A stretch of 64,000 nucleotides of DNA from Clavelina lepadiformis (taxonomy: Eukaryota; Chordata; Ascidiacea; Aplousobranchia; Clavelinidae), in contig NC_135245.1 of NCBI RefSeq assembly GCF_947623445.1, forward strand, positions 5,587,501 through 5,651,500, written 5' to 3'. Made by a program: the position numbers and the translations under genes. The notes under the pieces are model-generated. The model was not told where the DNA came from. It made no database searches and was given only the letters and a program-made list of their open reading frames with translations. Below are positions 4,982-39,800 of this stretch, one piece after another (positions within the stretch are counted from its first letter, which is position 1; the number at the start of each line of letters is the position of its first letter).

Positions 4982-5407
4982 TATGTATGATATTTGATGA
5001 TGAAATACAGTCAGAAGCTCTACAATCAGGAGATATTGTTGACAGTAATAACATTTGTTTATTAAGTAGTCATGAAGAACATTAAATGGAAAGATCTAAA
5101 TTTAACGATCAAATCTGACAACTGAGCAAACATGAAAACAAGTCAATTGCAGGCTCTTAAGTCAATGCTGTATCAGTACAAATCTTGCAAAATATGTGGA
5201 TGGACGTTTTAAACTTCATTTTTCATGCTCGGGATGGTTATATGCATGCAAGTATATAGCTAAATGACAAATGTAAAATCTAGAAAATGCACGATATTTT
5301 TCTTCCCACAACATGCCTAATTATATAAATCGAAAGTTTTCGCTGTATTTGTGTATCTCAAAATGTTCTGTTTAATCTGAATAGTTATAATTGTAGCATT
5401 GCTGTAT

Positions 5408-11604: not shown

Positions 11605-11899
11605 ACAAGGAAATGTATTGTACCATTTATTTTTGCAATTGATTGCTGAGGGCGAAGAGAACATTGCAGCATGATTCAAACCTTGTTATAGGCTAGCAAA
11701 ACATAAGAATTAAACTTGCAAACAATAAATAGGCAGCAAAATGATTTTAATAGCGGCAGACACTAATTTACAAAATGGTCGTAAACACTACTTGGCATTT
11801 TAGTTTTTGGTAGTATTCCAAAGGTAATGTCGATGCTGGACGATATGATACAGAATGAGGAAACTGAGCAATGTGAGAAGTATACATAGGCTGTCGCTC

Positions 11900-12135
11900 T
11901 TTTATCGGAAAAAAAACATACGTTCAAAGCTATTTTTTGTGATTTCTTGTTAACCTAACTTAAATGCTATTACACAGTAACGCAAACCTAACCAAAATCC
12001 TCCTTCTAATCTAGCTTAAAGTCAACTTAAGTTAAACCCTAATAGCTTAAATCAACTTTTTGCATACCCATTATCCTAACCTAACCGTCTATCTTTAACT
12101 ATGCGCAACGTGACTTACTTATGGTGAAATAGTCA
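11900..12135. repeat. Dispersed repeat with CCTAACCTAACC motif, copy 1
   Basis: Shares a colinear segment, ending ATCAACTTTTTGCATACYCA then TCCTAACCTAACC and CTATCTTTAAC, with 63830-64000 and less closely with 46600-46810. No terminal repeats or coding capacity are seen, and the class is unknown. Confidence 0.6.
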
Positions 12136-12424
12136 CTTAGTTTAAAATGCTATCGTACCTGCTTAAACGAGCAAGGATGCGTAGAATATAGGCTATACAC
12201 TTTACGAGTTACTGTCTGTATGGGAAGATTTTTTCAATCGCCTATATTTAACAATAGAAGTTGTCGACCCTCTTTGATTCTTTTTAAATCTACAAGCGTT
12301 CTGGGCAACAAATTGTAACAATTTCGCTCAGGTAACTAGCATAAGAATGTCTTTACGCGATAAAAAGAAATTTGGAAAATATGTTGCCTATTTCTTATTT
12401 TATAAAGCTTTGAATCCTTGAATT

Positions 12425-12494
12425 AAAATTAGCACACATCTGCACATAGCTGCTATGTGCATCGTGTGCAGCTTTGTGCAGCATGTGCTAATTT
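12425..12494. repeat. Imperfect hairpin-forming palindrome
   Basis: AAAATTAGCACA at the left end is complementary to TGTGCTAATTTT at the right end. An inner palindrome GCACATAG..CTATGTGC lies inside. It may be a solo tiny MITE. AT-rich simple sequence follows to about 12600. Confidence 0.5.
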
Positions 12495-12649
12495 TTGCTA
12501 ACGCCAGTTTTCAATTTTAAATTTGCGTTAAATTAGTCCCAATATATTTATATACAATAAATTAATAAATTTATAAATTAAGATATATATAAATTAAAAA
12601 TATTACATAAAAGATAAACTAAATAACCGTGCTAACCATTATTCATCTT

Positions 12650-12760
12650 TATCATTTTGTGTACATTTAGACATAATTCTTGCACGTTTTAAGCCTTTGG
12701 GCTTTGCTGCTTTTTCTCGCTTATTGCTTGCTGGTGGAATTGTTAATTGTTATTTTATCA
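12650..12760. repeat. Short dispersed family with AAGCC..GGGCTTTGC core, copy 1
   Basis: Core TTTTAAGCCTTTGGGCTTTG followed by a T-rich CTGCTTTTTCTCG stretch. Related copies occur at about 21160-21235 (same strand) and, inverted, at 20735-20800 and 46255-46330. The core is itself a small palindrome. The class is unknown. Confidence 0.5.
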
Positions 12761-12979
12761 CACTGATGTAATGGCAATGACGAAAAATAAAAAATACAAT
12801 ACGACCATGTCTCTTTAATTCATTAATTAGCAACTATGTGACATCAACATAGTAGGGCGTTACACTGATCATCAACCACGTGACATCACAAATTGCAGGG
12901 TGCTATTCAAAAACAGCAGGCTGCAATTGGTAATGTCAAGAGAAGATTTTAACAAGTACTCAGTTAAAACTGCTATTGA

Positions 12980-13243
12980 AGCCGAGCCACGGTTACTGAG
13001 CTTGTTTTGGTGCAAGTTTCAATTGATATACGTTTTTTGGATTTCTTGTAATATTGCCCAAATTTCGAACAGTTGACCACTCAATATCTCCAGGCAGCCA
13101 CCAGCCTGAACCACTGAAGAGAAGCAAGCGTCGTTCATACCTTGCTCGAAGGTATTACAATAGCAGCATAATTGGGAAATGAATTGAGTTCATATATTTA
13201 CAAGCCAGGCAGTGGCATGTTAACCGTTCCACCACCGAGCCGA
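12980..13243 (-). repeat. tRNA-derived SINE, copy 2 (diverged, truncated)
   Basis: The body motif CGGTTACTGAGCTTG..GTGCAAGTTYCAATTG and a degenerate tRNA-like head near 13200-13243 match the SINE family at 11287-11604 and 43008-43324. Confidence 0.55.
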
Positions 13244-13504
13244 TGAATAATTTAGGCTTCCGAGCACATAAGTTATATGCTGTGCAATTTCTTCCATGAT
13301 TAAAGATCATTTTCATAGCATAGATCAGTATCTAATGATGATGTGCTCCATCCATGCACCTCGGCATTGAATCATTGTGGCTACACGCACAGTAATGTTT
13401 GTAAATCTGTCCAACATATCATGACTCATGAGGAATTCTCCAGATATCTTGAAACAGTTGATTGATTATTTTATTTTTTTCTTGCAATAGTTTCTCAGGA
13501 CATT

Positions 13505-16500
13505 ATGTCTCATATTTTAAGGCACATGTTATTGGTAAGAAGTCTAAGCCGTGTTCATGTGGTTCAAAAACTGATTCCAAGTCAACCAAACTCTAAAAGC
13601 ATATTTCAGTCACAGGTGCTTTGCCAGAATGTATGCTACAAATGTAGATTGCTGTCATTGCAGTCGCGTTCACCTTATCAAAAAGAGAATTCTTTAGAGT
13701 TTGACAAGCCTGGTTCTGGAAGACTGTTAAAAACACAAGAAACTGTGCGTAAAGGCTTACATAAGCTTGGTATTATCTTACCTCAGAATTACACAAAACA
13801 ACAGTTGAATAACTCTGCATACGTTTTATTGAATGGAATTTATATGAAGGTGAGTGAGCAGACTAGGAAACTAGGCTAAGATAATTTTTCCTCATTAAGT
13901 TGTAAAATATCGGGTAAGCATTGTTGAATATCTAAATGATGTCTACTGGTTATTTATTTGTATGTAAGGTAGGTTGTCTAAGTTTTGGATTCGATCAATT
14001 TGCTTGTTGTCAATTTTGTTAGTTTAAGATAGGTGTAAAATTTAAATATTTAGTTTTATAAATATATATATAATTGCATAGTCAGTATGCATATTCAGAT
14101 GTTAAAATTAAAAAGGTATGTCATGTTCATCACAAATATGCTTAGGAGTGTCAATCATTCCACATTTTTTTAGTGTAAAATAGTCCTTATTATGAAATAC
14201 CTAAATGCGTTCAATCAATTTATTTGATGCGTAGTTTAAGCAGCTATTGGGGACAGAGAAGAGTTCTTGAACTCTGTTTGTTATTACTCTACCATTAAAT
14301 AAGCATAATCACTTATAAATAGCACTTCATTTTTAAATTGATAGTTTTTCTTCCAATTCCCACCTATACAATGAATGTTATATGATGACGGAATGAGTGC
14401 CCTTAGGAGTATTGACTTGAAAATAAACTTATTAAGAAGGGTGTCTGGCATAACATCAAGTGTGTAAAACTGCATTCCTAAGTGTTGAGACCCTAGTTCG
14501 ACATATTGAGAGGTCCCATATACGATACTGTAGTGCCTTAGCAAATACTTGCAAACAAGTCAGGCATGCCACACTAACCAGTAAAATACCAATGAATTGA
14601 ACAATAACCAACTGAAACAATTTCTTCACTGAGTGACAGTCAAAGCCTTAGATGAACTGGCAAACCAAGAAAAAGAAGAATTGTTTAGAGGGGGTCACAG
14701 TAGGCTCTGACAGGGAGGGAGTTGTCTGTCAACTCAGTCCCATCAGCTCTACCCTGATTAGGATAAAGTCAGAAAATTAAAAACAAGATGACATGGTTGA
14801 CGACTTGAGTTGACTTGCAATCATTTTATTTGTAAAATTATATTATTGTAATTATGGTAAATTTATTTGACTTCATGAATAGGTTTGTCTTTGTCCCAAT
14901 TGTATAGTCAGTTGTTGAAATATTTGCATAGTAATAAGGATATGGAATTTTTATATCCCTCTAGTTGCCATCGTTTCTGTAATTCTTTCTGATAATTGCA
15001 GGTAAAGCATGCAGAATTACGTGAACATGCTGGACTGGAAGATTCGTTTAGATGCTGGTTGAATGTAGTTTATATACATCTCTGGTTTCTATGCTCTCGT
15101 TTTAAACAGGAAGGACGGGATGGAGAGGTATAATGGACAAAAAGAATATAAGACAAAATCATACTTGCCTAAACGTTGCATGGATACTGGATAGATGCAT
15201 CTTATCTTGTTTTGGAGCCTCAGTTGTTGGTTCCCATGTGTAACCTGCATTTAAGTAGCAGTCGGTATATACAAACACAAACCTTCACACATCATTTTTA
15301 CTAATAAAGGGTTATTAGCACGACTGCATTCTTGGTGTCATTAAAAAGTGATGAAAAATAAAGGATTAAAATGCCTGTAAAAATTAATCATTTAAACCAG
15401 AAAACTTACTTTTATCATTTAAGTCATTTTGAAATAAATTGGGGTGAAGACATTATTAGATCTTTTCATTTTCCAGAAAAAATTCAAAATTTAATTGGCA
15501 GTTTCAATTCGTAACTTGTTATTTTGGTGTCATCTGTGACATTTAGAATACTGCATTGTTTAAACCTAGTTAACAAATTCTACTAAATTGTTGTCTAGTG
15601 GTGTGAATGAAATCAGTTGAAGCTAAACATGCCTCTATTGACATGTGACAATTTTTTTTGCTTCTTGTTAAACCGAGTTGGTTAATGGAATTTTATAGTT
15701 GTATGTATAAATAATTAAATATGATACACAGTTAACACACACTTGGTACACACACTTGATGCTTTTTGAGGTTTTTAACCTTAGTTTCCTATCATACATT
15801 TCTATATGGAAAGTATTCAGCAAAGCAAAAGTATTGCGATAGTTACCTTGAGTCAGAAATTGTTTAGAAATTTATTTCATTTTAATATTAGTAGCTTTCC
15901 AATGAAGTTTGAAATCTGGAAGTTGTCAATATCTTACTTTGGGTAGTTTTCGTACATGCAATACTGCTTCTGTCTTTTAGCAAGTAAACTTACTGTTAGC
16001 GATAGCAATTACTTTGTAGTTACATGCGAAAAAAAGTAAAACTTGTATATTTGTTTGCTTCCTGCCCTTGTAAAATTTGAATCATGTATACTAACTCTAT
16101 TTAAGATCATAATTACATTGATGATGAAAATGCTATGGCAAGATGTAGAAGACAGACTTGAAAAGTTTGAAGAAGAGCTAAAAGAAAATCTGAGTAAGAG
16201 GAAGAAGATGAAAGAGTGTTACACTATGCTTCATCTTTTCTTCATTTTCCTTGATGAAGGAATACTTGGCAGTGATGCAATGCTAGCTTCCTCCCTATGG
16301 AACAGAGTATATATGGACAATTACTGTAAGAAATATAAATAAATGTTTGTTTAGCAATGTATTCGTTTTATTCCTTGCTCTGATTCTAACTAAGCCAACT
16401 GCATGTTGTATTATGTCAAGAAAAATATCATCACAATAAGTGGACATAAAGTTTTTTCGGGTAGTGGTGTGGCTGAAAGCCTACAATGACTAAAGAGGCC

Positions 16501-16745
16501 GTCAATCTCCTGAAAATTTTATAAAATCTATATCTGTAATGAAATTTCTTGAAAATTCGATGTAGGGCTTTCTGAAATTTTGCACATTTCTTGTAGTTTC
16601 CATTCTTTTTTCAGATCAGCCAGAGATTTGGCATCTTGAGTTCTTGGTGCACTATGTCAGGTTTACAGCAACATGGTTGCAAGATACACCCATGGACACT
16701 TTAGTTTTACAACCTGAAGCAGTGGAGTGGACGCTGCCAACATAA
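13505..16745 (+). CDS. UQCC1: Ubiquinol-cytochrome c reductase complex assembly factor 1 (CBP3 family)
   Basis: UQCC1/Cbp3 is a mitochondrial matrix chaperone that, with UQCC2, helps synthesis and assembly of cytochrome b into respiratory complex III. Four exons, 13505-13849, 15002-15127, 16106-16325 and 16615-16745, join in phases 0, 0 and 1 to give 273 residues (human 299). Residues 1-60 are rich in Arg, Ser and Leu, as expected of a mitochondrial presequence. The ubiquinol-cytochrome c chaperone domain starts near residue 115. Family blocks seen are FRCWLNVVYIHLWFLCSRFK, KQEGRDGE, MLWQDVEDRLEKF, FLDEGILGSDAMLASSLW and HLEFLVHYVR. The exon 2/3 junction aligns with human UQCC1 without a gap. 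ATG 13505 is the first start in an exon preceded by a pyrimidine-rich stretch, so an untranslated 5' exon is possible. Confidence 0.92.
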
Positions 16746-18128
16746 ACTAACCAGCTTTAACTTACTAACTGAAAGTTCATGTTGATTTGATTGAAATGGA
16801 TTTAAGCACTGTTTAAATAGTTCACAACATGTCATTTGGTGCCTTGTTGTTCATATGTGCATGTGTTTATTAAAAAACTGAAATATGATGAGTTTACTGT
16901 CTGGAAGAATTTTGTTTTTGTTACAACCTGAAAGGAGGAAGACCAACATAATCTAACCTGCTTTGGTAGGATTGTCCTTTTCAGTCCTGAGATGTGCCCA
17001 AGTGTGAATGGCAATTTAACTCTTTACAGTGGTGAAAATATAATCAGTGTTTCCCAAGAAAAAAAATTTTCTGTCTTAGTCACGATGACATGGCTTAAGA
17101 CTGCTGTCTTAACTAGATTTTATCAAGGGAATATGTGAGATGAAGAAACCATCAGTTTGTATTTACACAACAATTATTGCTGCAATGTTAAACAAAATCT
17201 AACAAGGCAGCACCACAGTAAAACGAAAAGTATTCAATCTATGTATATATATTCAATCTTTATCATTAAATGTTATAAACATGGGAATGATGGTACAACA
17301 TTACTACCTGTACATATATGAATTCATTAACAGCGTTGAAATAAGCTGAATTTGTCAAGACACTTCGGTCAATGTAGGTAGCAGTACAAACTCAAAAGCA
17401 ATGAAATATCTATTTAAAAATGTAATTAACTATTTACTTAAATTACTGCAACAAATTATATAATGATTGTTTTTACAAGTTGTACATCAATACATGTCCA
17501 ACATGAAGGGAATTAAAAACTGAATTACAAACATGAAAAATGTATCAATAGATACTTTGCACTTGACTGTTTTGTGTTTACCAAAACAAACTAATAATAT
17601 GTACAGTTCTGAAGCATATTGTATTTAACACAAGCAAGCATTTTAAACTTCAGATATCTGACTGGGTATCGGGTTTAGTGGCCGTGCTAGTTGTTATATC
17701 AGCAAGTTATCACCATTATTATTTTCCAATACGTTTAAGGGGTCACTTTCCAATAGGAAGACAATTTTCCTGGCACCACGGTGATTGTGACGATGTCGCG
17801 CTCAAAGCGGCATATTAAAAAAAGTAAGAAATTTTCCGGTCCAATGCGAATGTGGACTAGTTTGTTGTTATAGCTATAGCTAGCTATAGCTTGTTGCAGG
17901 TCTAGGCTAAGTTGTAAATTTGGTGTGGGTTTGAATTTTTGGTATTTTGAACTCTATACAGAAAATACCTTAAGAAATGTAACTTATTATTTCGGGAAAG
18001 AAACAAAACTAATTTAAAGTTTTGTCAAAAACAACACAAATGGGACTAATAAAAATATTCTGAACGTAGATAGTAGAATCACATTCTATACATTAAAAAG
18101 TACATAAAAAGGCACTGCTTTCTACTAA
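16746..18128. other. Convergent 3' flank of UQCC1 and the BTB-KptA gene
   Basis: No gene is recognised. AT-rich sequence with a short inverted motif TATAGCTATAGCTAGCTATA near 17870. The 60-codon minus frame at 16832-17014 has no support. Confidence 0.4.
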
Positions 18129-21100
18129 TTAAGAAACTGGTACAGAATGTCCACGAGTTGCTTTGATTTTCCATCGAGAACCAACACATTTCATCAGAAA
18201 TCTTTGTTTATCACTGGACTCCACAATATCTTCTATGTCCTCCATAGTCAATTCACCACAATGATTTAGAAACCTTGGGCAATCAAGTATGTCTTGTACA
18301 AATATGAACCTCTCTGAGTGTAAGAAAACACTCTGTTAGTGATACTATATATTATAGATGCTGCAACTACTGTACAAGAATTTATAAATATCTGTATTGA
18401 TTTTCCACTTTTGCAAGTCACAGGTTTTCGGTACTTTTATATGATATTCACCTGAATCCATTTGCAATTCTTTATATTTTCCATGTCTCAGTATTCTCAC
18501 AAGTTCTTTTGAGACCTCAACATTACCGGGATATGGAATGTGTGAATAATCGTGACGATTTTGGCTTGACTGGCCTTTTTGAACCTTCTGATGCGATTTT
18601 AAAACATAAAAAATTATACACTCTTGTATTTCCTTTGCATTTTAAAATGAGATTCATATACAATTACAAAAATTATGCAAGCTTGCACCACAGCGTATGC
18701 CTCGCCCTCTTGAGGATGCAAATCCATTGCTCTCCTCAAGTGGGGAAAGTGGAAATTGAACAAAAGGGAAAGTGGTGTCATATATTTTAGTCTCTATTTG
18801 CATCCAACGATTGCACATGGGTCACAATCCACAACATTCCCAGACCAAAAAACAATTTAAACAGCATACATCTAACTTCAAGTAATATTTTGTGTGCTAC
18901 ACAGCATGAAAGAGACACTGTATGTGGTATGTTTTATTGCCATAGTTGGTATAATTCAGGATTTATTTAACAATTCTTGTAGCCTATTATCAAAATCAGT
19001 CATCGGACGCTAACCAGACGAGCAATTTATTACAAATTTGTTTAACTATTTAGGGCCAGGCCGGCCAGGTATTCAATATAGTAGAAGCATAACGTATAAT
19101 AAAATAACTAATTCTTACTTGAACACTGTGGCCATATGTAGCTTTTATTTTCCACACCAAGTTTATGCATTTGAGATCAAAACGATTCCTCTCATCATTA
19201 TCCACCAGCTGTTTCACATCATCCAGTGTCCTCATACCACATGTCTTCATAAAATTGCTATTTTGAAGAATATCAGGAACATTTGCGTAGCCGCCTGGCA
19301 AAATATCATAAATAAGATAATTCGTTCAACTAACTATATAACATAGTATTTATTTGTTAAGAAAACATTAAAACAACTCAACTGGAATCAATGTTTATTT
19401 GTTTGTTTCTCCCGTGCCGAAGAATACGCACCAACTCCTTGGAAAATTCAACATCATCAGGATAAGATACAACGGTGCGATGGAAGCGACCTGCACTACT
19501 TTGGCGGCCCCCATTTGTAGAAGGGTTCTGAGCAGAGGTTCGTTTGGGCAATATCTTCTTCGTCAAAGGACTGACAGTGCTTAAGCCATTAACTTTAACA
19601 GCTTTGCTCTCAGATACAGATTCTGGTACCTTTTCTTGTATTTTGTTGGGCATTTTAAGGCTGCGTAGCAATTCACTTTGGAAATACTCTTTGCACTCAT
19701 TTGAACTTTTTACCAAGACTTCCTCAGCGACAACTTCTTCCAAATAACTTGGTTGCAACAGATGAAGTTTAACAATTTTTAGAAAATCTGGAAAATGCTC
19801 CTTCCTATTTTCAGTATCATATTTCACCCAGTCAATGCTAGCTTCATAAACTGTTTTAGCTCCAAATGCCTGATAAAAACAAATATTTAATTACATGCGT
19901 TTGGGATTTTTTATCCATAAAAGTAAACTATGCCAACCTTTTGATCTCTTGTTTGCAAAAATGAAAGAACGGTCTTGAAATCAAGTTCTTTGAACTCATC
20001 TTCCTTTACTATCTCTTCAAAATGTTGTGCGCCAATTGTATCAGCACATTCCAGCAAGCTTTTGCAGTTATAAATTTGTCCACACAAACCACTTGTCAAA
20101 CAATTGCCGCTATTCATTGAGCCGCTTAAGAAATTGGCACACAAGTTCTTGAGCTCTATAAAAATGTCGAATACATGCCTGTAATAATAGTTTGGCATAT
20201 GTACCGTTCCTTTCAGAAACCTTATGCAGTTAAAAATATCAGAAGTTATGCTTTACCAACATGTTGCGCAACTTACTGTTCAGTCATGTTTATATATGTA
20301 TACAATTTATTACCATTACCACAGATCAATATGTTGTTGGTGCAAAAGCATACACAATGCTTAAAAGTAAAAGTTTTTATCATATGCAGAGTACATTACT
20401 TACACGTGCGTACAGGAAATATAAAATCTGTATGGCGTTAGATGCAGACAGATAGCTTCTGATGCTAATGGCTAATGTATATCAAACATGTTGCTAAGCA
20501 TTATACAGTCCAAACCTTTTAACCTAACTTTGCCTATTTCAAGATTTTTAATCACTCAAATTAATTTCATTGATCCTACAGATCGCCTATTAAAATGCAA
20601 GTAAACAAGAAGCGTCCACTTTGAGATGATCAGCCTACATTGTATATCCTGGCAATGCGTTGCATCATTTATTTTACTCATCGCTTATTTATAATTACTA
20701 CAATTGACTACAAGAGTAAGAAAATACAAGCTCATACGCATTTAACAAACAAGAAAAAGCAGCAAAACACCAAGGGCTTAACATGTGCAAATTAGCAACA
20801 ACAGTGACTCTATATGCTAAAAATGGTAATAGGTAAACAAAAGCTAACATGGGCACCAAACTGAAAAAACATACCATCCATTTGCAGGTAATCTGCAGCA
20901 GCAAGAATGTCCATGGCATTGTTCTCATTGAGTTCAATAGAAGCCGTGTATACAAATGCAAGTATCTCATGCATGATGTCCGCTGTTATTAGTTCAACAT
21001 GTACCACTGAATCATATTTCTCTCTCATCTGCAAAATGTCAAGAATTTAGCATCGGATTTTCAGATTCATGTGTAACAAATGTTTACTATTACCAGTTTA

Positions 21101-23195
21101 TCTCTGTCTAATATGTGTTTAAGTTTTGGATCCAAAGTTTTGCAGAATACCAATGTAATTCACACATTGCATAAGCCCTCAGGGCTTTGCAGCTTTTTCA
21201 CATTCATTAATTGTTTGTGAGCATACTGTTTGTTTGACTATTCTCCAATGATGTTAGGATCATACTTTTTGCTCTCCAAAGTCAATGGTGAATTGAACAA
21301 TACAATACAAATATACAATATATATTATTTTTCTAAATTGTGTTCATTTTTTATACAAAATCAAGAACTTAATCAGAAAAAAAACTTTTATCGCCTTTAA
21401 GAAATGAAATTTAAACAAGAATTGCAATGCAAAAAATAAAACAGTTCACATAGTTATGAGCCATAAATATTTTGCCAATTATGATATAATAACTGAGACA
21501 GAGCTTAATAACAAATATACGTGTTAAATGATGACAAAACCGAAAACAAGCTTCTCTATTTCCACATAGTGCCGCTTATATTAAAATCGAAAACTGGGCA
21601 AGAGTGTCACCCAACTATGTCTAACCAAAACATTTTACTGGGCCAAAAATAATGCTAGTTTTTTTAAATGCTCATTGAATAATTCATTATACTTGATACT
21701 AAGGTTTAGCAAAAATTATTAATGTCCTTGCTCTTAAGTAACACTAGAACGACCTTTTAAACTACCTAGAAGGACCAAGTGTGTCAATTGACACATAACA
21801 CTCATAAAAATACAATTCAATCATTTCATTTAGTGAGAAAAAGATCCTTGAAGGAGAAATGGCATTAAATGTCATTCGTTTCATTTTGTTCGTCATTCGT
21901 TTCATGCTTAAATTTTCCGTTTTAATCGTAAAAACCCCAAAAGTCAGACAAACTGAGCGTTGTAAGAAATAAATAACTGTCAAGCAGTTTCAGCAGAAAA
22001 AGGTTATGCCTGGCGGAAATATAAGAATACTTGAAATGTAAGAATATAAGAATACTTGAATACTTAAAATGCTTCAATTGACGCGCTTGGTCGTTCTAGT
22101 GTTAAAGCAATTTTAAATAAAATGTGCAGCATTTAAGCTAATTGTTGTAGCAGCCACAAATGCAAAATCTACACCATTGATCAAATATATAACATTTGAC
22201 AGCTCTTATTATCTGTAGATGTGTGAGTTCGCCAAATCTTTTTAGGAGTTATTAATCAGCGGCAAGCGAACCCAATTGCTACAATATCTAGATGGAAAAG
22301 GTTTGTTATGGTGAGTTTCCACAAGCCAGGGTGTTTTTGACAATTGTTTGTTGCTTGTTAATTTATTGAGCAGTTGTCTTCACTGGGTATACATAACAAC
22401 AAAAATCACTCACTGGGCTGTATATTTTTTTGGACTGTTTACTTTTTGCCATTAACTGTGGGGAGTGAAAGTGACAATGCTAATCTTTGTAGTTATAGCA
22501 CAATTAATTACATGCTCACGAACAATTATCGAACTGGAAAAAGTGGCAAAGTTCTTTTTTCTTACATATCCTTCAACTACATTGCATGCGGCAAGTGAGC
22601 TGCAAGTTGGTCATAGCTTTGATGTAGCCTATATTAAGGCATCGCCAAACGCTTTTTACAATTGGCCAGATAAGCATTAGAAGTGAAAAAATTGTGAGCA
22701 GGATTCCCGCTTTGTTTAACAGGTTACAATACAAAAAACTGGCTGGGTGGCCAAGCAAACTGATCTCGCGAGTTGGATCCGCCCATCCTATATGTTAGGA
22801 ATAGTTGTAATTGGGCTAAGATTAACTGCTTTAAACAACAATAAACAACATTAAACATTACTTCTGATTTAAACATTCTGTGAAAAAAGTTGGAAAGTTT
22901 TCCAAGTATACATCTATGTGCAGCAAATAGTTTGTTCTCCACTATTAGCGTGACATCACAGTAAGAGTCTCTATCAAAACGATCACTGCAATACATAAAA
23001 TATATTTTCAAAACTCTAACACTGTGCTGCAAAGTTAAATACTCATTAAAACAGCTATGTGCAAGTTAAATAATTAAGGACTGGTAACACAATAAAAATC
23101 AAAATTACTGGCACTTACTTGTTTAAATCAGCTAAAATAGACGTTTTATGGCTTCCATAACATTTTGCTCTGCGTTTTGGATTATTTTTGCTCAT
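18129..23195 (-). CDS. BTB-BACK protein carrying two KptA/Tpt1 N-terminal lobes
   Basis: Eight minus-strand exons, 23119-23195, 22862-22985, 20875-21028, 19938-20155, 19383-19869, 19119-19294, 18452-18587 and 18129-18313, keep phase at every junction (2,0,1,0,1,0,1) and give 518 residues ending in TAA. Residues about 25-118 are a BTB/POZ domain (DSYCDVTLIVENKLFAAHR, then DILAAADYLQMD). Residues about 118-240 are a BACK domain of KLHL type (LKNLCANFL, ADTIGAQHFEEI, DWVKYDTENRKEHFPDFLKI, LLQPSYLEEVV). After a Lys/Ser-rich linker come two tandem copies of the N-terminal lobe of RNA 2'-phosphotransferase: VEFSKELVRILRHG to KIKATYGHSVQ, and VEVSKELVRILRHG to KIKATRGHSV. No NAD+-binding C-lobe (HGT, HIHF, EGD motifs) follows; the frame ends five residues after the second lobe. 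KLHL-type BTB-BACK proteins usually carry Kelch repeats and recruit CUL3. By inference this could be an adaptor whose reader recognises RNA ends. Its introns match those of the two KptA genes downstream. Confidence 0.88.
20735..20800 (-). repeat. AAGCC..GGGCTT family, copy 2 (inverted)
   Basis: Lies in an intron of the BTB-KptA gene. On the minus strand it reads CACATGTTAAGCCCTTGGTG, followed by a T-rich CTGCTTTTTCTTG, like the copy at 12650-12760. Confidence 0.45.
21160..21235 (+). repeat. AAGCC..GGGCTT family, copy 3
   Basis: CATAAGCCCTCAGGGCTTTG, then CAGCTTTTTCACATTC, in intron 2 of the BTB-KptA gene. The core and T-rich flank match the copies at 12650, 20735 and 46255. Confidence 0.45.
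21742..22101. mobile_element. piggyBac-like MITE in BTB-KptA intron 2
   Basis: The inverted ends are CACTAGAACGACC and GGTCGTTCTAGTG. The right end abuts TTAA (22102-22105), the piggyBac target. The left flank is GTAA (21738-21741), consistent with one decayed base. 360 bp, no transposase. Confidence 0.65.
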
Positions 23196-23776: not shown

Positions 23777-25082
23777 CCTCAAAACTTCATTTCAACGCCA
23801 ACTTCCAGATGGCACATGGTTACCCAAAATCCACCTGTAACCTGACCCTAAGGTAAATAGGATATACATCACATTTTTCTTCATTTAAATAAAGCATAAT
23901 TAATGTCAAGATATTTAAGATTATCTCTGCATGTTAGTTTTATATCAAGTATGACAGCATAGCCTATATGCTAGGCTGATATGGCCTAAGCCCTTACATA
24001 GCGAGCCACATTTAAGTTGTTTTTCTTTGTTTAGGAATGAGTTTTATTACGCTAAAATTTTTATGACATAACATGGAAGTTTGATAAACCAGGACCCGCG
24101 ACAACTACTTTGAAACGTATGGTCTTTCAGTAAAAATAAGCCTAGGGGCTAGGGTCCTGGTCACATTAATTTGTCAAAAACAACCTGCAAAGGTAAACAA
24201 CGTAATCGGTTATTCCCCGAGTGCGTAACTTTCCTCTCGTTCTTGCCGTCCCCTTTTGCTCTTTGTTTTAGTTGAATTGGATGAGAGGAAAAGTCGGTAA
24301 CAAGCCGAATGCGCAAGTTTATATCACAATCGTGTTGTTTTCGTCTGATATGATATCATTCTTTGTAAAAAAATAAATAAAAACGCAGAGTATGCAAATC
24401 ACGTTAAATTGAATATATTGGGAATATTATTGTCCTTCGAAAGAACAAACAAACACGACGAACTGATCAGAATGGCACAGGACTATGGAACGCCAACGCC
24501 GCAAAAATAGCAAAATGTTAAATTGAATGGGAACTCTACAAATTATGTTTTGTTTTCATAATTTGATTGGAAGATTTTCAAACGTAACTTTATAGATTCA
24601 AATCACGAAACAACAAGCCAAACGCCAAAGCCGGCAATCAAACGGTCTTTTCTGTGATTGCTGTTGCACGATTCATATGGCAATTTTCAAAATGGTTTCG
24701 CAACATTTACAATTACACCACAGTTTTATAAACTTGATTTTTTAAATCAAACCACGACATTTTAAGTCAGATATAACAACTGCAAAGCAAACTGGCTGTT
24801 GGCAAGTTACAATGCCTAATGGCAAATGGTATTTTCTTCAATCGGATTGCAGTTTTGTTAATCACATGTCGGTTTTTTGAATCATGTAACTTATACCATG
24901 AATTATAAAATGGCCAAATGATTGGAAATTAGTCTTCGTGAATTAAAAACGGGCGAACCAATTTGCAAAATACATACGTGATTAAACAAACATGCATTCC
25001 TAAAAGCACTAAATGATTCTATAAAAGTACGTATGAATCGCATAACGTCTTCATGAATTGCCAAGTATAGATGGATCGGCAA

Positions 25083-25345
25083 ATGTATAGATGATTTGCC
25101 AAAAGTGCATGAATCGCTAAATGTACATGATTCGGTAAATGCATGCATGAATCGCCAAATGTACATGATTCGGTAAATGCATGCATGAATCGCCAAATGT
25201 ACATGATTCGGTAAATGCATGCATGAATCGCCAAATGTACATGATTCGACAAATGTATGCGTGAATCGCCAAATGTACGTGATTCGATGAATGTATGCGT
25301 GAATCGACAAATGTACGTGAATCGACAAATGTATGGATGGTTCGT
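25083..25345. repeat. 38-bp tandem repeat array, left foldback arm
   Basis: The period is 38 bp, built of two related 19-bp halves: AAATGTACATGATTCGG and AAATGCATGCATGAATCG. The best-kept units lie at 25110-25250; outer units are more diverged. Because 38 is not a multiple of three, overlapping open frames in all phases spell similar His/Ile/Phe-rich peptides, which I do not regard as proteins. Confidence 0.85.
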
Positions 25346-25619
25346 TGTTAAAGTGCGCCGCGCCAAGTGTGCAAAAATGTCTCTATTGGGGAAAAAATGT
25401 CTCTCTTGGGGATACCAAGAAGAAAAAGGGATTTTGAGAGAAGACAAAGTTTTCCGAATAGCCTATGTTTCGGGCAGGCCGAAAGTTACCGTGTACCGTC
25501 AGTGCAAAATAGCCTACTTTGCGATCAGCAATAAGCGTAAGCTTAGTTTTGTTCGCAATGAAGAATGGGATGTTTCTTTAGAAGTTATTTCGACACTACA
25601 CGCGTTAGATTATGTTCTA

Positions 25620-26421
25620 CAGTCGACTCCGCTTAATTCGGACACTTTGGTTCCGCTCACTTTTGGCCGAATTAAGCGGAAAATCGATTGTTCGTTTCAT
25701 GGTCATGCGTAAAGGCAAACAACGCATTTAAAATACTGTAGTGTTGCATAATAAATGAATTGCACGTGTGCTATACTGCAGTAATTGGCACTGATCGCAT
25801 AAAACGCACAAGAGTACGAGTAAATGAGTACGCATAAAACGCACATTCTGAGCCGCTTCCTCTCTGTCTTTAAACCTCGTCCACGAAGCATAGTCTCTTC
25901 ACGTTGTTCACGCAGATTTGCATCATTTTTCTGCCAATCTTGCAAAGTACGTTTTGATATCCCCGCCAACGCAGCTAACTATCGAACTGTCAAGGAAGCG
26001 TCGTCATTTTTTTCTTCGTTTACTTTAGTGAGCAATTTCACTTTTTCTTCTAAACTTTTCTGTACCATTCTGTTCTACAAGATGGTCGCAATGGTACCGA
26101 AGTAAAAGCGACTATGAAGCTGGCACGGCGTTATATGAGTTCATTGTCGATTGTTATCGCATCAATCGTCATTGTTTCACCATAATCACTCATAATGCAA
26201 CTGCATCTTGTGTTAGAACCAACAAAGTACTGTTTATTGTTTCATAACCTAACGATGTAACGATAGGAATTGCGAACCTGTGTCCGAATTAAGCGGAGAA
26301 TTGTCCGAATTAACGGGAGTTTTTTACGTTCAATTTTTACTTTTGTTCCGTTCCCGAGCATTTTGGCCGAATAAAGCGCTTGTCCGGGTTATCCGGTGTC
26401 CGAATTAAGCGGATTCGACTG
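25620..26421 (-). mobile_element. pogo/Tigger-like DNA transposon copy in the left foldback arm
   Basis: Inverted ends begin CAGTCGACTCCGCTTAATTC and CAGTCGAATCCGCTTAATTC. The flanking TA dinucleotides (25618-25619 and 26422-26423) are the expected target duplication, and the intact right arm supplies the empty site (one TA). On the minus strand, about 26069-25850, a remnant of the N-terminal helix-turn-helix of a pogo/CENP-B-type transposase is readable (VQKSLEEKVKLLTKVN, then LAALAGISKRTLQDWQKN), with an in-frame TAG between the two parts. 802 bp, non-autonomous. Confidence 0.85.
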
Positions 26422-26439
26422 TATTTGAAATGTGGTTAT

Positions 26440-26991
26440 TAGGGCAACCAAAAGTCAATATGGTCAATTTTTTTTTACCTGCTCAGAATGCTATGAAACA
26501 AGCACAAAACAAATTTCAGCTTTGTACGACGTGTGGTATAGAAGTTATTAGGTCAGATAAAGTCAAAATGTTACGTTAGGTCAAAATACGGTCAAATTGT
26601 TTCGTTAGGTCTTTTTTTTTAGGTCAAAATCTATTAAACTTGTAATTTTGTAACCATTTTGTAATATTATTCTTCCGTTTTTCTCTTTTCTTGTACCGCA
26701 AACAATTCCAGTCCCGCAAATTTTACTTAGAACCAAAGCCACAAAGAGAGGGAAGGCTTTTCAGCGCGTTTGGTGACGTCACGATGTGACGTCATTGCAT
26801 TTGAAACTGCAAGTTGTCAATCTCAATACGCAGAAACGAAAAAAAAGTCAACACTAGAAAAGCATTTTGTCATTTTTAAATGCAGCTTTAGATTAGAAAG
26901 TTGCTGTAGACAGTGTAGAGACTATCAGTATAGCGTTTTTCAAAATGAGGTCAAAATTTAAAATTTTTAGGTCAAAAAACTGGTTGCCCTA
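26440..26991. mobile_element. hAT-like MITE in the left foldback arm
   Basis: Ends TAGGGCAACCA and TGGTTGCCCTA. 8-bp target duplications GTGGTTAT (26432-26439) and GTGATTAT (26992-26999) differ at one base. The complementary position in the right foldback arm has a single GTGATTAT, i.e. the unoccupied site. The interior repeats a TTAGGTCAAAAT-type motif and encodes nothing recognisable. Confidence 0.8.
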
Positions 26992-27489
26992 GTGATTATT
27001 AAGCCGGACCAGTACTGCAGTGCTGTGGAAGGCTGGTATATCCTATTCAGGCTAGTCTTTCAAGAGCGCCTTTTAGCGTTTTATTAAGCAGCACATGAGG
27101 TTGGTTGGGTTTATTTCATTTTGCAGTCAGAATTGCAGACCTGAATGGAAAGGAATACCACAGCACTGCAGTACTGGCCCGGCTTAATAATCACATTTCA
27201 AATAGAACATAACCTAACGCGTGTAGTGTTGAAATAACTTCTAAAGAAACATCCCATCCTTCATTGCGAACAAAACTAAGCTTACGCTTATTGCTGATCG
27301 CAAAGTATTTTGCACTGACGGTACACGGTAACTTTCGGCCTGCCCGAAACATAGGCTATTGCCCTCTGGGCTATTCAGAAAACTTTGTCTTCTCTCAAAA
27401 TCCCTTTTTCTTCTTGGTATCCCCAAGAGAGACATTTTTTCCCCAATAGAGACATTTTTGCACACTTGGCGCGGCGCACTTTAACAACG

Positions 27490-27775
27490 AACCATCCATA
27501 CATTTGTCGATTCACGTACATTTGTCGATTCACGCATACATTCATCGAATCACGTACATTTGGCGATTCACGCATACATTTGTCGAATCATGTACATTTG
27601 GCGATTCACGCATACATTTGTCGAATCATGTACATTTGGCGATTCATGCATGCATTTACCGAATCATGTACATTTGGCGATTCATGCATGCATTTACCGA
27701 ATCATGTACATTTGGCGATTCATGCATGCATTTACCGAATCATGTACATTTAGCGATTCATGCACTTTTGGCAAA
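27490..27775. repeat. 38-bp tandem repeat array, right foldback arm
   Basis: Reverse-complement counterpart of the 25083-25345 array, with the same 19+19 bp substructure. The two arrays differ slightly in unit number, as expected of tandem repeats changing independently after the arms formed. Confidence 0.85.
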
Positions 27776-28392
27776 TCATCTATACATTTGCCGATCCATC
27801 TATACTTGGCAATTCATGAAGACGTTATGCGATTCATACGTACTTTTATAGAATCATTTAGTGCTTTTAGGAATGCATGTTTGTTTAATCACGTATGTAT
27901 TTTGCAAATTGGTTCGCCCATTTTTAATTCACGAAGACTAATTTCCAATCATTTGGCCATTTTATAATTCATGGTATAAGTTACATGATTCAAAAAACCG
28001 ACATGTGATTAACAAAACTGCAATCCGATTGAAGAAAATACCATTTGCCATTAGGCATTGTAACTTGCCAACAGCCAGTTTGCTTTGCAGTTGTTATATC
28101 TGACTTAAAATGTCGTGGTTTGATTTAAAAAATCAAGTTTATAAAACTGTGGTGTAATTGTAAATGTTGCGAAACCATTTTGATAATTGGCATATGAATC
28201 GTGCAACAGCAATCACAGAAAAGCCCGTTTGAATGCCGATTTTGACGTTTGGCTTGTTGTTTCGTGATTTGAATCTATAAAGTTACGTTTGAAAACCTTC
28301 CAATCAAATTATGAAAACAATACATAAATTGCATACTTGCGATTCAATTTAACACTTTGCTATTTTTGCGGCGTTGGCGTTCCATACAGGAC

Positions 28393-30937: not shown

Positions 30938-32898
30938 TCAGCTGCACGTACAGAAGGGTCGAAGTTGTACCACTTTCTTGAAATACTTTGGATAAATTAA
31001 GCCATCACTGTCACCTTCGCTCAAAATAACTTTATTGCTTGATTCATAAAATTTTATTCCACCTGCGGACGAACAAACAATTTCATTGGCAACCATGCTA
31101 CAGTTACTTAATGTTGTTTAGTGTTTTATGTAGCACTAAGCTATATATTAAAAACTCCAACTACGATCAGTTACTTAAAGGTACCCTGAAGAGCAAGTGG
31201 TAGGTCAATGTAAATAACAACGTCACAAGAGTGTGGCATCCCACTGATTACGCCTTGATCGCCATGCAAGCCAATGGCAAAGTGAATATGAGTTCTCTAC
31301 AAATACACGTTTTATTTCTTTGGTGCATTCCTTTTTCACAAGCATCGCTCATGCTTAGGACAAAAACATTAACTACAACAAAGCAACACACAGTTGAGCT
31401 GAGAACTTGAATCACTTAATTGTAAGGCTGCTGTCACACAACCAGATGGCATATATTGATTTTAACATATAAGTAATTTTACCAACATACCCTCATTCGA
31501 CTGAGCCCATACTTTTGGATATTTGACCAATTTCGGCTGTAGGTCCCATGAGCAACTACTTTATACTTGTTAGGATCAGTAATTTCTGTTAAGCCCAAAC
31601 CTGTTACCTTAGGAAAAAATTGCTCAATCCAAATCCAAACGCTAACTAAAAGTTTATAAAAAGAATAACTCCATAAAATCATAGTTTATATTGCCAATCA
31701 GTATATTTAAATCTACTTTTTGCTTATTTGGAACAATGGAAAGCTACAAAAATTTTGTAGTGTTGCCAACTCAAAAATGTTTCAAGGTTAAAGTACAGAT
31801 GCTTTGAACTTGGTCAATAACAAGGAGCTTTAAAAACTTACTCAAAAATTATTTATTTTTGCATTATCTAGTTATGTTCAATACACCTTATCTGAGGTTG
31901 TGTAGAACGTTGTGGGACGTTTAACACATCGTTCTTAACTCTATTAAATTTGTAAAATGAGAAAAAAGTCTAGTGCAAGACGTAATAACTATTAGTTGTT
32001 TTAATGAACAGAGATTATTGGCCTAATCACAAACATAGATTGGATATTTATGATGTAACTTACTATTTCATCAGACATTCTTTCTTTTTAATTATCGATA
32101 CATCACAAACTATGCACAATGTGTGAAACGTTTGTTAAGTTCTATGCAAGCTCAAGTTGAAGGCATATTAAGCACTTGCTTCAACATGGTGGACAAGAAC
32201 AAAAAAGGCCATTATGAATGTTTTCATTATGTACCACAACAGAGATTATCAGTTGAAGTCTTCTTGTATAAACTTGTATTCTTTCTACATTGGTTTATGT
32301 ACTAATGATATTAAGTACAACAATCTTGAACTTGAATGGTTATCAAATTAAACGAAACAGTTATTCTTATTGTTGACATGACAACACCAACTGAAATTTG
32401 CCTGAGTTGGTACAGAAATTACAGCTAAAAAGTTTATATCAACCAAGTAAAACTCGCTGATTAATTATTTGGATATCCTTTACAATGAGATGGGGAGGGC
32501 AAATGAAACAAAACTAAAGAATCAGTAAGAGCGCAACCTTTACAGTATGGCCTTGTGTAGCTTTGATCATCCACTTTGAATCAACATGTTTTAATTCATA
32601 TCGTTTTTTGTTATCACTGTTGACTATTCGTTGAATGTCCTGAAGTGAAGTATTTTGAAAAGTCCTACCTAAAAGGTGAAGCACTTCATCCACTGACAAG
32701 AAACCTTCTGTACGAAATAGAAAATAACAAAGTCAGCTTTTCCTTTTAACTCATTGTGGTCGAAACCCATGATTTAATCAACCAATACTGCATATTTAAA
32801 AACAACTTACCAGTATCCAATTTCACACCATATTTTCCATGCCTTAGTATACGAACAAGTTCCTTTGATATTGCAACATCACCGTAAAATGATGCCAT
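30938..32898 (-). CDS. Compact KptA/Tpt1 (TRPT1)-like RNA 2'-phosphotransferase family protein
   Basis: KptA/Tpt1 enzymes remove an internal RNA 2'-phosphate by transferring it to NAD+. Five minus-strand exons, 32811-32898, 32538-32707, 31491-31607, 31185-31296 and 30938-31062, join in phases 1,0,0,1 to give 203 residues, a normal single-domain length. N-lobe: VAISKELVRILRHGKYG, GFLSVDEVLHLL, NSDNKKRYEL, IKATQGHTVK. C-lobe: VVAHGTYSRNW, RTHIHFAIGLHGDQGVISGM, SSNKVILSEGD, IYPKYFKKV. The Arg-His pair (RHG), the HGT and the Arg before HIHF are kept. The motif usually written IRAxQGHS has Lys instead of Arg, and a second usual Arg (GMR) is Pro. Activity is therefore uncertain. The start at 32898 is the first ATG before the domain; an LTR element begins 82 bp upstream. 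Confidence 0.9.
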
Positions 32899-32980
32899 TT
32901 GGGCTAACAAAGGGTAAATAGGTCCTACCAATAGTATATACTGTATTAAGAGATCTGGTACTGAGATACTTTAAAAAGCT

Positions 32981-36877: not shown

Positions 36878-39800
36878 TTAGTTCGGCTTTCTTTTATCAG
36901 AATGTTTGCCATATCGGGAATGACCGTCCATTTTAAACTGATTTCCTTTCTGCTGACCATATCTTCTGCTTTCTCTGGATTCCTGCCCCTTGCCTTCCTG
37001 CTTTCTTGGCACTGATTCGGACAATTTAGTTCGACTGGTTTGGTCATCATCATCTTTGAAGTCGGCTGGGACTTCAAAAGGCAACTTTTGCCCTATAAAA
37101 ATGTGTATTTTCATGAAAACTACCGGTATATGAACTTTTAACGCATTAAGTAGAAAAACGCTACTGAATGTGAAGTAAAGTTAAATTTCAGTTTTACTGT
37201 CAACTTATACAACCAAACGTTGAATTCTCTGAGTGCAAAATACTCACATGGAAAAACGTTCATAACCATATCAAAAAATTTTGGATGAATTCTTCCTTTT
37301 TTATCACCTTCACATAAAATGACCTTGTTGCTGGATATGAAGAATTTTAAACCGGCTGTAAAACAGTGTTTAATTTAAATAATAATAAATTTATTAAAAA
37401 GCAGTTTTCTATGAAATGGAAACACCGCTTCTTTGTTGGAACAATGACAAGCATTTTTTTAAAAACAAACCTTTCATGGCTTTTTCCATGTCCAGTTTAA
37501 TCACGATTTCACAACTGTTGCGCATTCCACTGATCACTTCATTTTGTCCAGGCAAACCAATTGAAAAATGAATATGGTTTCTCTAAAATAAATGAACCAA
37601 TTGAAATTATCAATTTTATTTCGTGTGGTATGAGGAAGTGGTGCTCAGCGTGGGCAGAAATTATATAGCCTACTTCATCAGCTGGCTCAAAAGGTTGTGC
37701 ATTTGAGATAAATATTAATCCCGTTTTCTAATTGTTATGAAATGTTCATTCTAAGCAGTAAGCATGAGTGGCTGTGTCGGCACTACAATGTTGTGCACAA
37801 TGCACATCTCTAGATGTTGCTACTTTGTTGAACTAACGTAATAAAGTCAAACTGCATTATCATCAATATTTTTTTTATTGCATTATTGTTTGAAAACTAT
37901 GTTCCATATATTTTGTTCAGCTGTTTTCAGTCTAACTCATAAGATTAAACTAAACATTTTTGATGGTTTTAAACATAGATGAAAAAGGACATTTAACCCT
38001 CAATAATATGATAAGACAAGAAAAGTTACACATGGCCAAAATAAAATCCATAAGCATAAAATTGAGCACTGGCTATGACATACACACCACTTTGAATAAA
38101 ACAAACCTTCATTCGATTTAAGCCTGTTGTTTTTATTTTCTCCCAGGCTTCAAAATACGTTCCATGGTAAACATCTGTATATTGCTTGGGATTGGTGATT
38201 GGTTGTAAATCAAGATTTTGTACCTGTACATCAAAATTTTATTTTTACAAAGTAACAATCAAGCAAAGGCTTGTCTACTAAACTTTGCGACAAACTTCTA
38301 AGTTAACGTGTGTATGATAAGTATAACGTGCTATAATGAATCTTAAAATTTAACACTTTACAAAAAAATCATTCATTAATACAGCTAAATTGTTACAACT
38401 TTCATCAATATATATCAAAAACGTAGCAATGGAATTTATATCATAATTATTTTTTCTCACCTTCACAGTATGTCCTTGAGTGGCTTTAATTTTCCATTCT
38501 CCATTGATTTCTTTTAACTCAAACCGTTTTTTATCATTTGAATCTACAATATTCCTGACTTCTTCAAATGACCTTTTACCACATTGCTCAATAAATTTCC
38601 TATCTTCCAAAATTTGTCTTACACTGATATACCCCTCTAAAATTTAAAAGTATTATTTTTCCAATCACTGTTTGCAACTTTTCATTGGTTTTAGGTTTCT
38701 TTTAGGTTTTCAAGATATCAAGTGTAAAATTACCTTCATCAAGTCGAAGAAACTTGTACTTTCCATGTCGCAAGACTCTAACCAACTCCTTGGAAAACTC
38801 CATATCACCTGGGTACCAGTCATCATAAGGTTCAAGATCGTCACGGTAATCATGTGAACGGTTATACCCATCATGAGATCCTTCCAAGTTTCTGTTATAC
38901 TCGTAGTTTCCTTTATTCATATGGGGATGTTGTTGGCCTTGGTTTTGGTGATAATGCCCACCATGGTGCTGAAAATCTCTTCCACGATTTCTGTTTTGCT
39001 GATCATGCTGACCTCTCCAAGACCCCTGCACCCGATTGTGTTGCTGCTGTGATGAATAGAACTGATGAGACGTTCCTGCATACCCGTCATGATTAGCTCC
39101 AACATGCTGCTTGGATGGTGGGCCCTTAAAACAACATCAGTTTTTCTAGGACCATATCACATTACGAAAAGCTAAAAATGTTTAATTGCAATAAGGCATT
39201 AGTAGCCTATATAATACATCTCTGATAATAATTAATAGACACTGTCATGTATAAGTACTTAAGTCAATATGATTACTCTGGGGTTATTTTCCAAGCACCA
39301 ATAAGACTTTATTAAATACTTGGAATGGGCAATTTTAATTGACCTTGATCCTTTACCTACTAGAGTACTTGTTAAAAAAACTTTCTATGAATGATTTGTT
39401 CAGTATGATTTTTGTTTCTAAAAGTGAAAAATTCTATGGTGTCATACGTATGACATTATTGATTTCATAATCACAAAATTTTCATGTTTTTGACAGTTTT
39501 TAGCTCAATAAATATTGAAAAATAGGCAGTTTATCACAACTACAGCAGTAAACAGGGATGCAATAAAAATTCATAATAATTTAAAATAAATAAGAATTTT
39601 TAATTTAATTTTGGCAATTGCTGGGGATGAGCTGATTCCACCACTGATACAAACCCAAATATATTTGCCGAATATCGCTTGAGTGAAAGATTCGGGCAAA
39701 AACAAATACAACGTTACCTTTATTTTCTCATAATTAGTGACAACAATAATCTATTTCAATGGTTTAGTTAAGTTGGTAAAATCTCTTTACAATGATGATA

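Follow-up and report, generated by a model that had tools for sequence, protein, structure and literature searches.

A BTB-BACK protein carrying two Tpt1-type RNA lobes in Clavelina lepadiformis, a possible reader of RNA 2'-phosphates

BTB-BACK-Kelch proteins such as KLHL3 act as CUL3 adaptors, and disease mutations at Ala77, Met78, and Cys164 of KLHL3 cut CUL3 binding, with A77E disrupting it severely. Tpt1 (KptA, TRPT1; PF01885) combines an N-terminal RNA lobe with a C-terminal NAD+ lobe. Excerpts of PMC6333775 assign roles to its RNA-contact residues and describe Arg121 as contacting both the 3'-PO4 group and the phosphates of NAD+, the NAD+ lobe completing the RNA site. We describe here a gene from a 64,000-nucleotide stretch of the C. 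lepadiformis genome (the window) whose predicted product resembles parts of both systems. Its BTB and BACK domains match those of the KLHL3 group in order and length, it has a phi-x-E motif, and the 229 residues that align with KLHL3 are 31% identical; it lacks the Kelch propeller, however, and has two Tpt1 RNA lobes instead. It shares with Tpt1 the N-terminal RNA lobe, here present twice with its Arg-His...Arg and Ser-Lys residues, but without the C-terminal NAD+ lobe and joined to BTB-BACK.

Gene model and domain architecture

The sequence-only reading had proposed eight phase-consistent exons encoding 518 residues, and its coordinates, strand, exon count, and length were all reproduced. The minus-strand model (18129-23195) comprises 1,557 nt including the stop codon, and all seven introns of the spliced gene model are GT...AG and phase-consistent. 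The donors following exons 4 and 5 (the latter GTTGAG) look weak.

In the spliced protein, Pfam matched BTB at residues 27-129 (E 7.4e-28), then BACK at residues 142-238 (E 1.5e-20), and PTS_2-RNA in two stretches (E 3.5e-37), the better of which covers positions 3-83 of the 177-position profile. This agrees with the earlier claim of BTB, BACK, and two tandem KptA N-lobes without Kelch or C-lobe. Searched singly against the PDB, both lobes matched Tpt1 chains, with best E values of 3.3e-8 and 1.9e-8. When the open frames of exons 2-8 were scanned one by one, BTB, BACK, and PTS_2-RNA were each found in two exons; a local lobe profile, built from ten sequences with the fused lobes among them, matched the last part of exon 5 as well as exon 7.

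No Kelch family was found by Pfam in the spliced protein at E<=1, and a Kelch-half profile built from 20 KLHLs of the same genome had no match at E<=0.01 in open frames of at least 25 aa across the 64-kb window. The NAD+ lobe is likewise absent from the protein: the PTS_2-RNA match runs on to residue 515 of the 518, and exon 8 coding stops two codons plus the stop codon beyond the Tpt1 splice-donor position. A hidden downstream NAD+ lobe was rejected: in positions 1-18128 of the window, no match to the NAD+-lobe sequences of TptA, TptB, or the C3 gene scored better than E 3.5, while the C3 query, the only one from outside the window, recovered the three NAD+-lobe exons of each of TptA and TptB at E 1.8e-5 or better. 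A duplicate of the fusion elsewhere was also rejected: the best candidates listed for the 518-residue protein, 74 matches in all, include its own eight exons, and no other locus among them combined BTB-BACK with a lobe. The suggestion that this domain order had not been described held in open-licence full texts, in which we found no published protein with BTB-BACK and Tpt1 RNA lobes.

Table 1. Exons of the fusion gene and the neighbouring Tpt1 paralogues (positions in the window).
Feature	Coordinates	Strand	Remarks
Exon 1	23119..23195	-	Start ATG, residues 1-26; donor GTAAGT
Exon 2	22862..22985	-	BTB first half, residues 26-67; alone BTB E 1e-9
Exon 3	20875..21028	-	Alone BTB E 8.8e-10
Exon 4	19938..20155	-	BTB end / 3-box and BACK first half; BACK E 1.9e-7; weak-looking donor GTTGGC
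Exon 5 (fusion exon)	19383..19869	-	BACK second half, ~63-residue linker, RNA lobe 1 first helix; single open frame
Exon 6	19119..19294	-	Remainder of RNA lobe 1, residues 354-412; PTS_2-RNA E 4.6e-10
Exon 7	18452..18587	-	Linker and RNA lobe 2 first helix; local lobe profile E 6.6e-9; open frame alone, no Pfam match at E<=1
Exon 8	18129..18313	-	Remainder of RNA lobe 2; PTS_2-RNA E 3.7e-11
TptB, two-lobed Tpt1 paralogue	30968..32899	-	Pieces ~32811-32899, 32538-32707, 31491-31607, 31174-31296, 30968-31063; ends not all fixed
TptA, two-lobed Tpt1 paralogue	37261..39136	-	Q/N/H/G-rich N-terminal stretch; outer ends not fixed
TptA exon pieces	38734 to ~39136, 38461-38636, 38107-38223, 37471-37582, 37261-37355	-	

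Residues of the RNA lobes and of the BTB-BACK half

Both lobes carry the identical residue at the positions of CthTpt1 Ser10, Lys11, Arg18, His19, and Arg68, so that three of the four residues of the catalytic tetrad (Arg18, His19, and Arg68) are present in each, as Arg342, His343, and Arg391 in lobe 1 and as Arg446, His447, and Arg495 in lobe 2. The fourth, Arg121, is part of the NAD+ lobe that is missing here; because this lobe is absent, catalysis, and with it 2'-phosphate transfer to NAD+ by the fusion protein, would not be expected. With three tetrad residues kept and the Arg121 lobe missing, the fused lobes are predicted to be a reader without an eraser. Between the lobes, pN was 0.361 and pS 0.801 (saturated), the lower pN implying that the amino acids have been held.

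The lobes diverge at the position of CthTpt1 Lys66 (Arg in lobe 1, Lys in lobe 2) and at that of Tyr80 (Tyr in lobe 1, Arg in lobe 2). Moreover, the NAD+ lobe completes the RNA site of Tpt1, so RNA binding by a lobe on its own may be weak or absent, and the RNA lobe itself has a La-like winged-helix fold (excerpts of PMC6333775). These features would suit lobes that have lost 2'-PO4 reading and now serve as winged-helix modules for unmodified RNA, DNA, or protein, whether on a CUL3 adaptor or on a plain BTB scaffold. We consider this alternative unlikely, in view of the identity of Arg18, His19, Arg68, Ser10, and Lys11 in two lobes whose mutual identity is only 49%.

Compared with the KLHL3 chain in the KLHL3-CUL3 complex (4hxi), the BTB-BACK half aligned throughout (E 7.6e-39). 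Its phi-x-E CUL3 motif is Met68-Arg69-Glu70, aligned to KLHL3 Met83-Ser84-Glu85, and the equivalents of KLHL3 Met78 and Cys164 are present. The KLHL3 Ala77 position is occupied by Arg62; Lys or Arg is found there in 8 of 20 KLHLs of the same genome, themselves only putative CUL3 binders. Arg at this position, the retention of RNA-contact residues with loss of the catalytic lobe, and the two Tpt1 paralogues nearby could also point to a BTB-dimerised binder of 2'-phosphate RNA that is no ubiquitin adaptor, and that protects the RNA, competes with Tpt1, or recruits the Tpt1 paralogues; BTB proteins that do not serve as CUL3 adaptors are numerous. The retention of phi-x-E, of the Met78 and Cys164 equivalents, and of a full-length BACK argues against such a shield or scaffold, which we judge improbable.

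The exon breaks of the BTB-BACK half resemble those of nine KLHL-type genes of the same genome, and Kelch matches lie downstream at six of the eight loci that these genes occupy. Among those compared, the nearest BTB-BACK relative is the chromosome 3 locus L015 (36% identity over BTB-BACK; grouping 0.928). L015 differs in being a single long open frame, with a C-terminal half that, judged by eye, resembles a degenerate Kelch propeller, and with no PF01885 match at the locus.

Kinship of the lobes and the fusion exon

TptA and TptB lie 8-16 kb from the fusion gene on the same strand, and the fused lobes cluster with them in the lobe tree (support 0.988). The inner nodes, which bear on which Tpt1 copy gave which lobe, have supports of only 0.199 and 0.209. 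Both fused lobes share the inner phase-1 intron of three Tpt1 genes, whose phase-0 donor also occurs in lobe 1. TptA and TptB have the inner lobe intron of the fused lobes in position and phase, with lobe identities of 41-52%; by contrast, both contain NAD+-lobe exons, and among the best candidates there was no BTB or BACK match in their surroundings. The genome has 10 PF01885 matches: two are the fused lobes, three two-lobed Tpt1 genes account for seven, and the last lies in a retroelement-like frame. Lone RNA lobes elsewhere in the genome were rejected, all 10 matches being otherwise accounted for. The Tpt1-like domain of the retroelement-like open frame, the KptA domains reported from the polyproteins of two viruses, a Botrylloides leachii nidovirus and a picorna-like virus (excerpts of PMC9503650), and the local duplication of Tpt1 are contextual hints that would fit a host fusion directed at proteins on RNA ends cut by viral or element endonucleases, or on RNA handled by element-borne Tpt1 domains; we regard this as quite improbable.

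Exon 5 is 487 nt long, open, and uninterrupted, and has in the same frame the BACK end (E 4.4e-9, Pfam) and the lobe 1 start (E 1.2e-6, local profile). Because this single exon spans both, the two halves form one gene model, and mis-joining of two adjacent genes is unlikely. As a yardstick, 2 of 7,626 sampled 161-codon frames in the window were fully open, both at 49.1-49.6 kb. At 63 codons, about the length of the linker, 221 of 7,662 sampled window frames were open in a count made in three frames, and six of these 221 touch exon 5. That the BTB-BACK exons and the lobe exons lie on separate transcripts, as the two weak-looking donors, an in-frame Met264 between BACK and lobe 1, and a gene known here only from genomic DNA might allow, is very improbable given this shared open exon, the fit of phase at 7 of 7 junctions, and lobe introns that equal Tpt1 introns in position and phase. 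We regard the BTB-BACK-lobe gene as most probably a genuine chimera.

Proposed function and significance

We propose that a KLHL-type BTB-BACK gene with introns lost its Kelch portion and may have acquired, behind BACK and in the same exon, the N-terminal RNA lobe of a Tpt1 copy duplicated locally; this lobe is now present twice. The protein, if expressed, would dimerise via BTB and bind CUL3 via BTB and the 3-box. The dimer, with as many as four RNA lobes at its disposal, would then grip RNA carrying a 2'-phosphate at an end or at a splice junction. With the NAD+ lobe absent, phosphate removal would not be expected; the mark would be read instead of erased, and ubiquitin transfer would be brought to proteins on such RNA. 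The fusion protein may thereby mark proteins on damaged or spliced RNA. Indirect support for the proposed role comes from the tetrad residues retained in both lobes and from the retained phi-x-E motif. We assign this whole explanation, a KLHL/Tpt1 chimera serving as a CUL3 adaptor that grips 2'-phosphate RNA, a probability of about 0.4. Whether a CUL3 adaptor with paired catalysis-free lobes would let the RNA 2'-phosphate decide which bound proteins become ubiquitylated is more doubtful.

RLIG1, part of a conceivable animal ligation route that leaves a 2'-PO4, is present in the genome, and an excerpt of a 2026 review states that there is so far no evidence for a full yeast-like ligation route in animals (PMC13247085). 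CNPase gave no match in the genome, and control genomes gave none in that search either. Searches for GH6, a tunicate marker, and for mitochondrial COX1 were likewise negative, the control genomes again giving no match to GH6. Animals have Tpt1 plus enzymes able to leave 2'-phosphates on RNA. To our knowledge, this mark is associated only with enzymes that make or remove it, and we know of no reader. The doubled catalysis-free lobe is a suggested probe reagent for 2'-phosphorylated RNA. If the proposed function is true, the fusion protein would be a reader of the 2'-phosphate mark and an RNA-end-directed ubiquitin ligase. A natural protein with 2'-phosphate-gripping residues on a ubiquitin-adaptor scaffold, and without the catalytic lobe, would suggest that reading 2'-phosphate RNA is of use to at least one chordate.

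Gene model and domain content

Joining the eight minus-strand exons proposed in the sequence-only reading gave an open frame of 518 codons plus a stop, which reproduced the length and outer coordinates (18129..23195) of that model, and all seven introns are GT...AG with matching phases, confirming that the exons are phase-consistent. Pfam searches of the spliced protein matched BTB (residues 27-129, E 7.4e-28), BACK (residues 142-238, E 1.5e-20) and two stretches of PTS_2-RNA (whole-protein E 3.5e-37), the better of which spans residues 434-515 and profile positions 3-83 of 177. These are the BTB, BACK and two KptA N-lobes claimed earlier, and the claimed lack of Kelch repeats also held, in that no Kelch family matched at E<=1. 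Single-exon open frames of exons 2-8 matched BTB in two cases, BACK in two and PTS_2-RNA in two; the exon 7 frame alone had no Pfam match and matched a locally built lobe profile, whose ten sequences include the fused lobes, at E 6.6e-9.

Exon 5 reads in one frame from the second half of BACK through a KLHL-like stretch and a linker of some 63 residues into the first helix of lobe 1, the first PTS_2-RNA lobe. Frames open throughout were found in 2 of 7,626 samples of 161 codons and 221 of 7,662 samples of 63 codons in the window. From the sequence, we conclude that BTB-BACK and the RNA lobes are most likely one gene. Speaking against this, the donors after exons 4 and 5 look weak and the linker region that follows BACK contains an in-frame Met264 ahead of lobe 1, so an additional, shorter transcript may be made from this locus.

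The interval that separates the fusion gene from TptB, a two-lobed Tpt1 paralogue, contains long inverted repeats, whose 861-nt arms are 97% complementary, together with arrays of a 38-bp unit; these look like a transposon at the fusion locus. Just upstream of TptB is a 300-nt direct repeat (99% identical, starts 963 nt apart).

Coordinates of fusion-gene exons and of other features (window positions unless a contig or locus is named)
Feature	Position	Strand	Remark
Exon 1	23119-23195	-	
Exon 2	22862-22985	-	
Exon 3	20875-21028	-	
Exon 4	19938-20155	-	then donor GTTGGC
Exon 5	19383-19869	-	487 nt, then donor GTTGAG
Exon 6	19119-19294	-	
Exon 7	18452-18587	-	
Exon 8	18129-18313	-	
Inverted repeats	24484-28386		
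TptB	about 30968..32899	-	
TptB, stretch with the Arg139-position residue	31174-31296	-	
Direct repeat	32981-33280 and 33944-34243		
TptA	about 37261..39136	-	
TptA, N-terminal stretch	38702-39136	-	
C3 Tpt1 gene with 2H phosphoesterase matches	C3 about 20196150-20199190 (L009 about 2650-5690)	-	closest to solved TRPT1 chains
C3 Tpt1, stretch with the Arg139-position residue	L009 about 2840-3012	-	
C1 Tpt1/KptA domain	C1 about 6214762-6215499 (L010 3263-4000)	+	PF01885 positions 42-177, E 7.9e-10

Origins of the BTB-BACK region and the lobes

The best PDB match of the BTB-BACK region was KLHL3 in the KLHL3-CUL3 structure 4hxi (E 7.6e-39, residues 26-254). In all nine intron-bearing BTB-BACK genes of eight loci, hand-picked from genome match lists, and likewise in the fusion gene, profile matches break at about 69/70, 120/121 and 193/194, these being breaks of profile matches and not mapped splice sites. 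Kelch-profile matches follow downstream at six loci and are lacking from the examined stretches of the other two, L035 and L039; the L038 stretch ends within its second gene. Seven of these nine genes have their last BACK match end at 241-243 and the other two at 248 and 259, but in the fusion gene it extends to 269. The nearest of 30 compared sequences (36% identity over BTB-BACK, support 0.928) is that of locus L015; it is a single long open frame, and by eye its C-terminal half resembles a degenerate Kelch propeller. No second locus with both BTB-BACK and lobes occurred among the 74 matches listed for the 518-residue protein. Among the matches listed, BTB-BACK and Kelch matches cluster on contigs C5 (about 22.5-24.3 Mb), C7 (about 2.28-2.45 Mb) and C6 (about 1.96-2.1 Mb), some scoring equally as if near-identical, which we read as a probable KLHL expansion in C. 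lepadiformis.

Ten PF01885 matches were found in the genome (209,060,895 bases, 95 contigs): the two fused lobes, seven in three two-lobed Tpt1 genes (TptA, TptB and one on contig C3), and one on contig C1. TptA and TptB share the window and strand of the fusion gene. An intra-lobe phase-1 intron has the same position in all five lobes compared (lobe 1, lobe 2, TptA, TptB and C3), and a phase-0 donor right behind GH[ST]V[QKE] is common to lobe 1 and the three Tpt1 genes. At this ancestral-donor position lobe 2, the second lobe, reads GHSVP and then GTTTCTTAA; therefore, coding passes the ancestral donor and ends two codons later, and such read-through would be a simple route to loss of the NAD+ lobe. 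In a ten-lobe tree, whose inner nodes lack resolution, the fused lobes group with TptA and TptB (support 0.988), and neither the C3 gene nor the solved chains fall in that group. The motif YP-[DG]-[DN]-[VM]-E directly before the lobe is common to the fusion gene and TptA.

The TptA lobes matched TRPT1 7yw2 at E 1.1e-32 and follow a long, low-complexity, Q/N/H/G/R-rich N-terminal stretch. Counted on the alignment, the equivalent of Arg139 in CthTpt1 (the reference Tpt1 of structure 6e3a) is Arg in TptA, but TptB has Pro and the C3 gene Lys there; TptB may therefore be a weak enzyme. The C1 domain shares one open frame with an RNase H domain, the preceding frame is reverse transcriptase-like by eye (YVDD), and the C1 frame looks retroelement-like with a Tpt1-like domain.

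CUL3- and RNA-contact residues

In KLHL3, phi-x-E is Met83-Ser84-Glu85, and CUL3 binding is severely impaired in the A77E, M78V and E85A mutants and 37-fold weaker with C164F (PMC3616122). The fusion protein matches KLHL3 along BTB-BACK, with Met63, Glu70 and Cys149 at the Met78, Glu85 and Cys164 positions and Met68 as phi of phi-x-E, but has Arg62 in place of Ala77, which suggests caution about CUL3 binding. This caution is lessened by the residues at that position in 20 single-frame KLHLs of the genome (Lys 7, Thr 6, Ser 2, Ala 2, Gly 1, Arg 1, Ile 1).

In CthTpt1, the N-lobe (1-85), a winged helix near that of La, binds RNA and the C-lobe (86-182) binds NAD+; the essential tetrad consists of Arg18, His19, Arg68 and Arg121, and Ser10, Lys11 and Lys66 are further ligand contacts (PMC6333775, which prints Arg66 in one place, apparently for Arg68). 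With numbering set on the 6e3a sequence (HMMER) and consistent with the paper's Cys46, Met60 and Tyr80, Ser10, Lys11, Arg18, His19 and Arg68 are identical in lobe 1 (334, 335, 342, 343, 391) and lobe 2 (438, 439, 446, 447, 495). At the Lys66 position lobe 1 has Arg and lobe 2 has Lys, and at the Tyr80 position they have Tyr and Arg, respectively. The lobes are 49% identical, and their pN of 0.361 below a saturated pS of 0.801 is consistent with protein-level selection, the duplicates being too old for an exact ratio. The fusion lobes keep RNA-gripping residues of Tpt1, whereas Arg121 is missing together with the entire NAD+ lobe. The absence of this C-lobe, already claimed in the sequence-only reading, was borne out: in window 1-18128 no NAD+-lobe query scored better than E 3.5, while the query from the C3 gene recovered three NAD+-lobe exons in TptA and in TptB.

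Proposed mode of action and candidate RNA ligand

With the gene model, domains and kept residues of the fusion protein established, its most likely mode of action would be that of a dimeric CUL3 adaptor on 2'-phosphorylated RNA. Dimerised through BTB, the protein would bring together four RNA lobes and two CUL3 arms, its lobes would grip 2'-phosphorylated RNA ends or junctions without removing the phosphate, and ubiquitin would be transferred to proteins bound on such RNA. The main alternatives are that the protein serves as a shield or scaffold and has no ubiquitin activity, or that its lobes are re-purposed winged helices.

As to the ligand of the proposed adaptor, the genome encodes RLIG1 (five matches on contig C9, best E 2.9e-19). 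CNP, CLP1, RLIG1 and Trpt1 make a yeast-like animal route conceivable, with no evidence so far of its full operation according to a 2026 review (PMC13247085). CNPase was not found in a genome search that had no working control, so its absence is not established. GH6, a tunicate marker, likewise gave no match in a search with no working control, and neither did mitochondrial COX1 match anywhere. The C3 Tpt1 gene has AKAP7-type 2H phosphoesterase matches immediately upstream, and 2H enzymes are reported to open cyclic phosphates to 2'-phosphates (PMC9503650). These PF10469 matches (E 4.2e-10 and 8.8e-5) share the strand of the Tpt1 gene and stand head to tail with it at a distance of a few hundred bases, which may represent an operon or a fusion joining two RNA-end enzymes that act in succession.

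Full-text literature searches, judged by title, gave no description of the BTB-BACK-PTS_2-RNA order, in agreement with the earlier statement that no protein with BTB, BACK and two KptA lobes in this order is known to have been described; an unremarked animal protein-database entry may exist. As far as searched, the fusion protein is a KLHL-type scaffold with a previously undescribed receptor.
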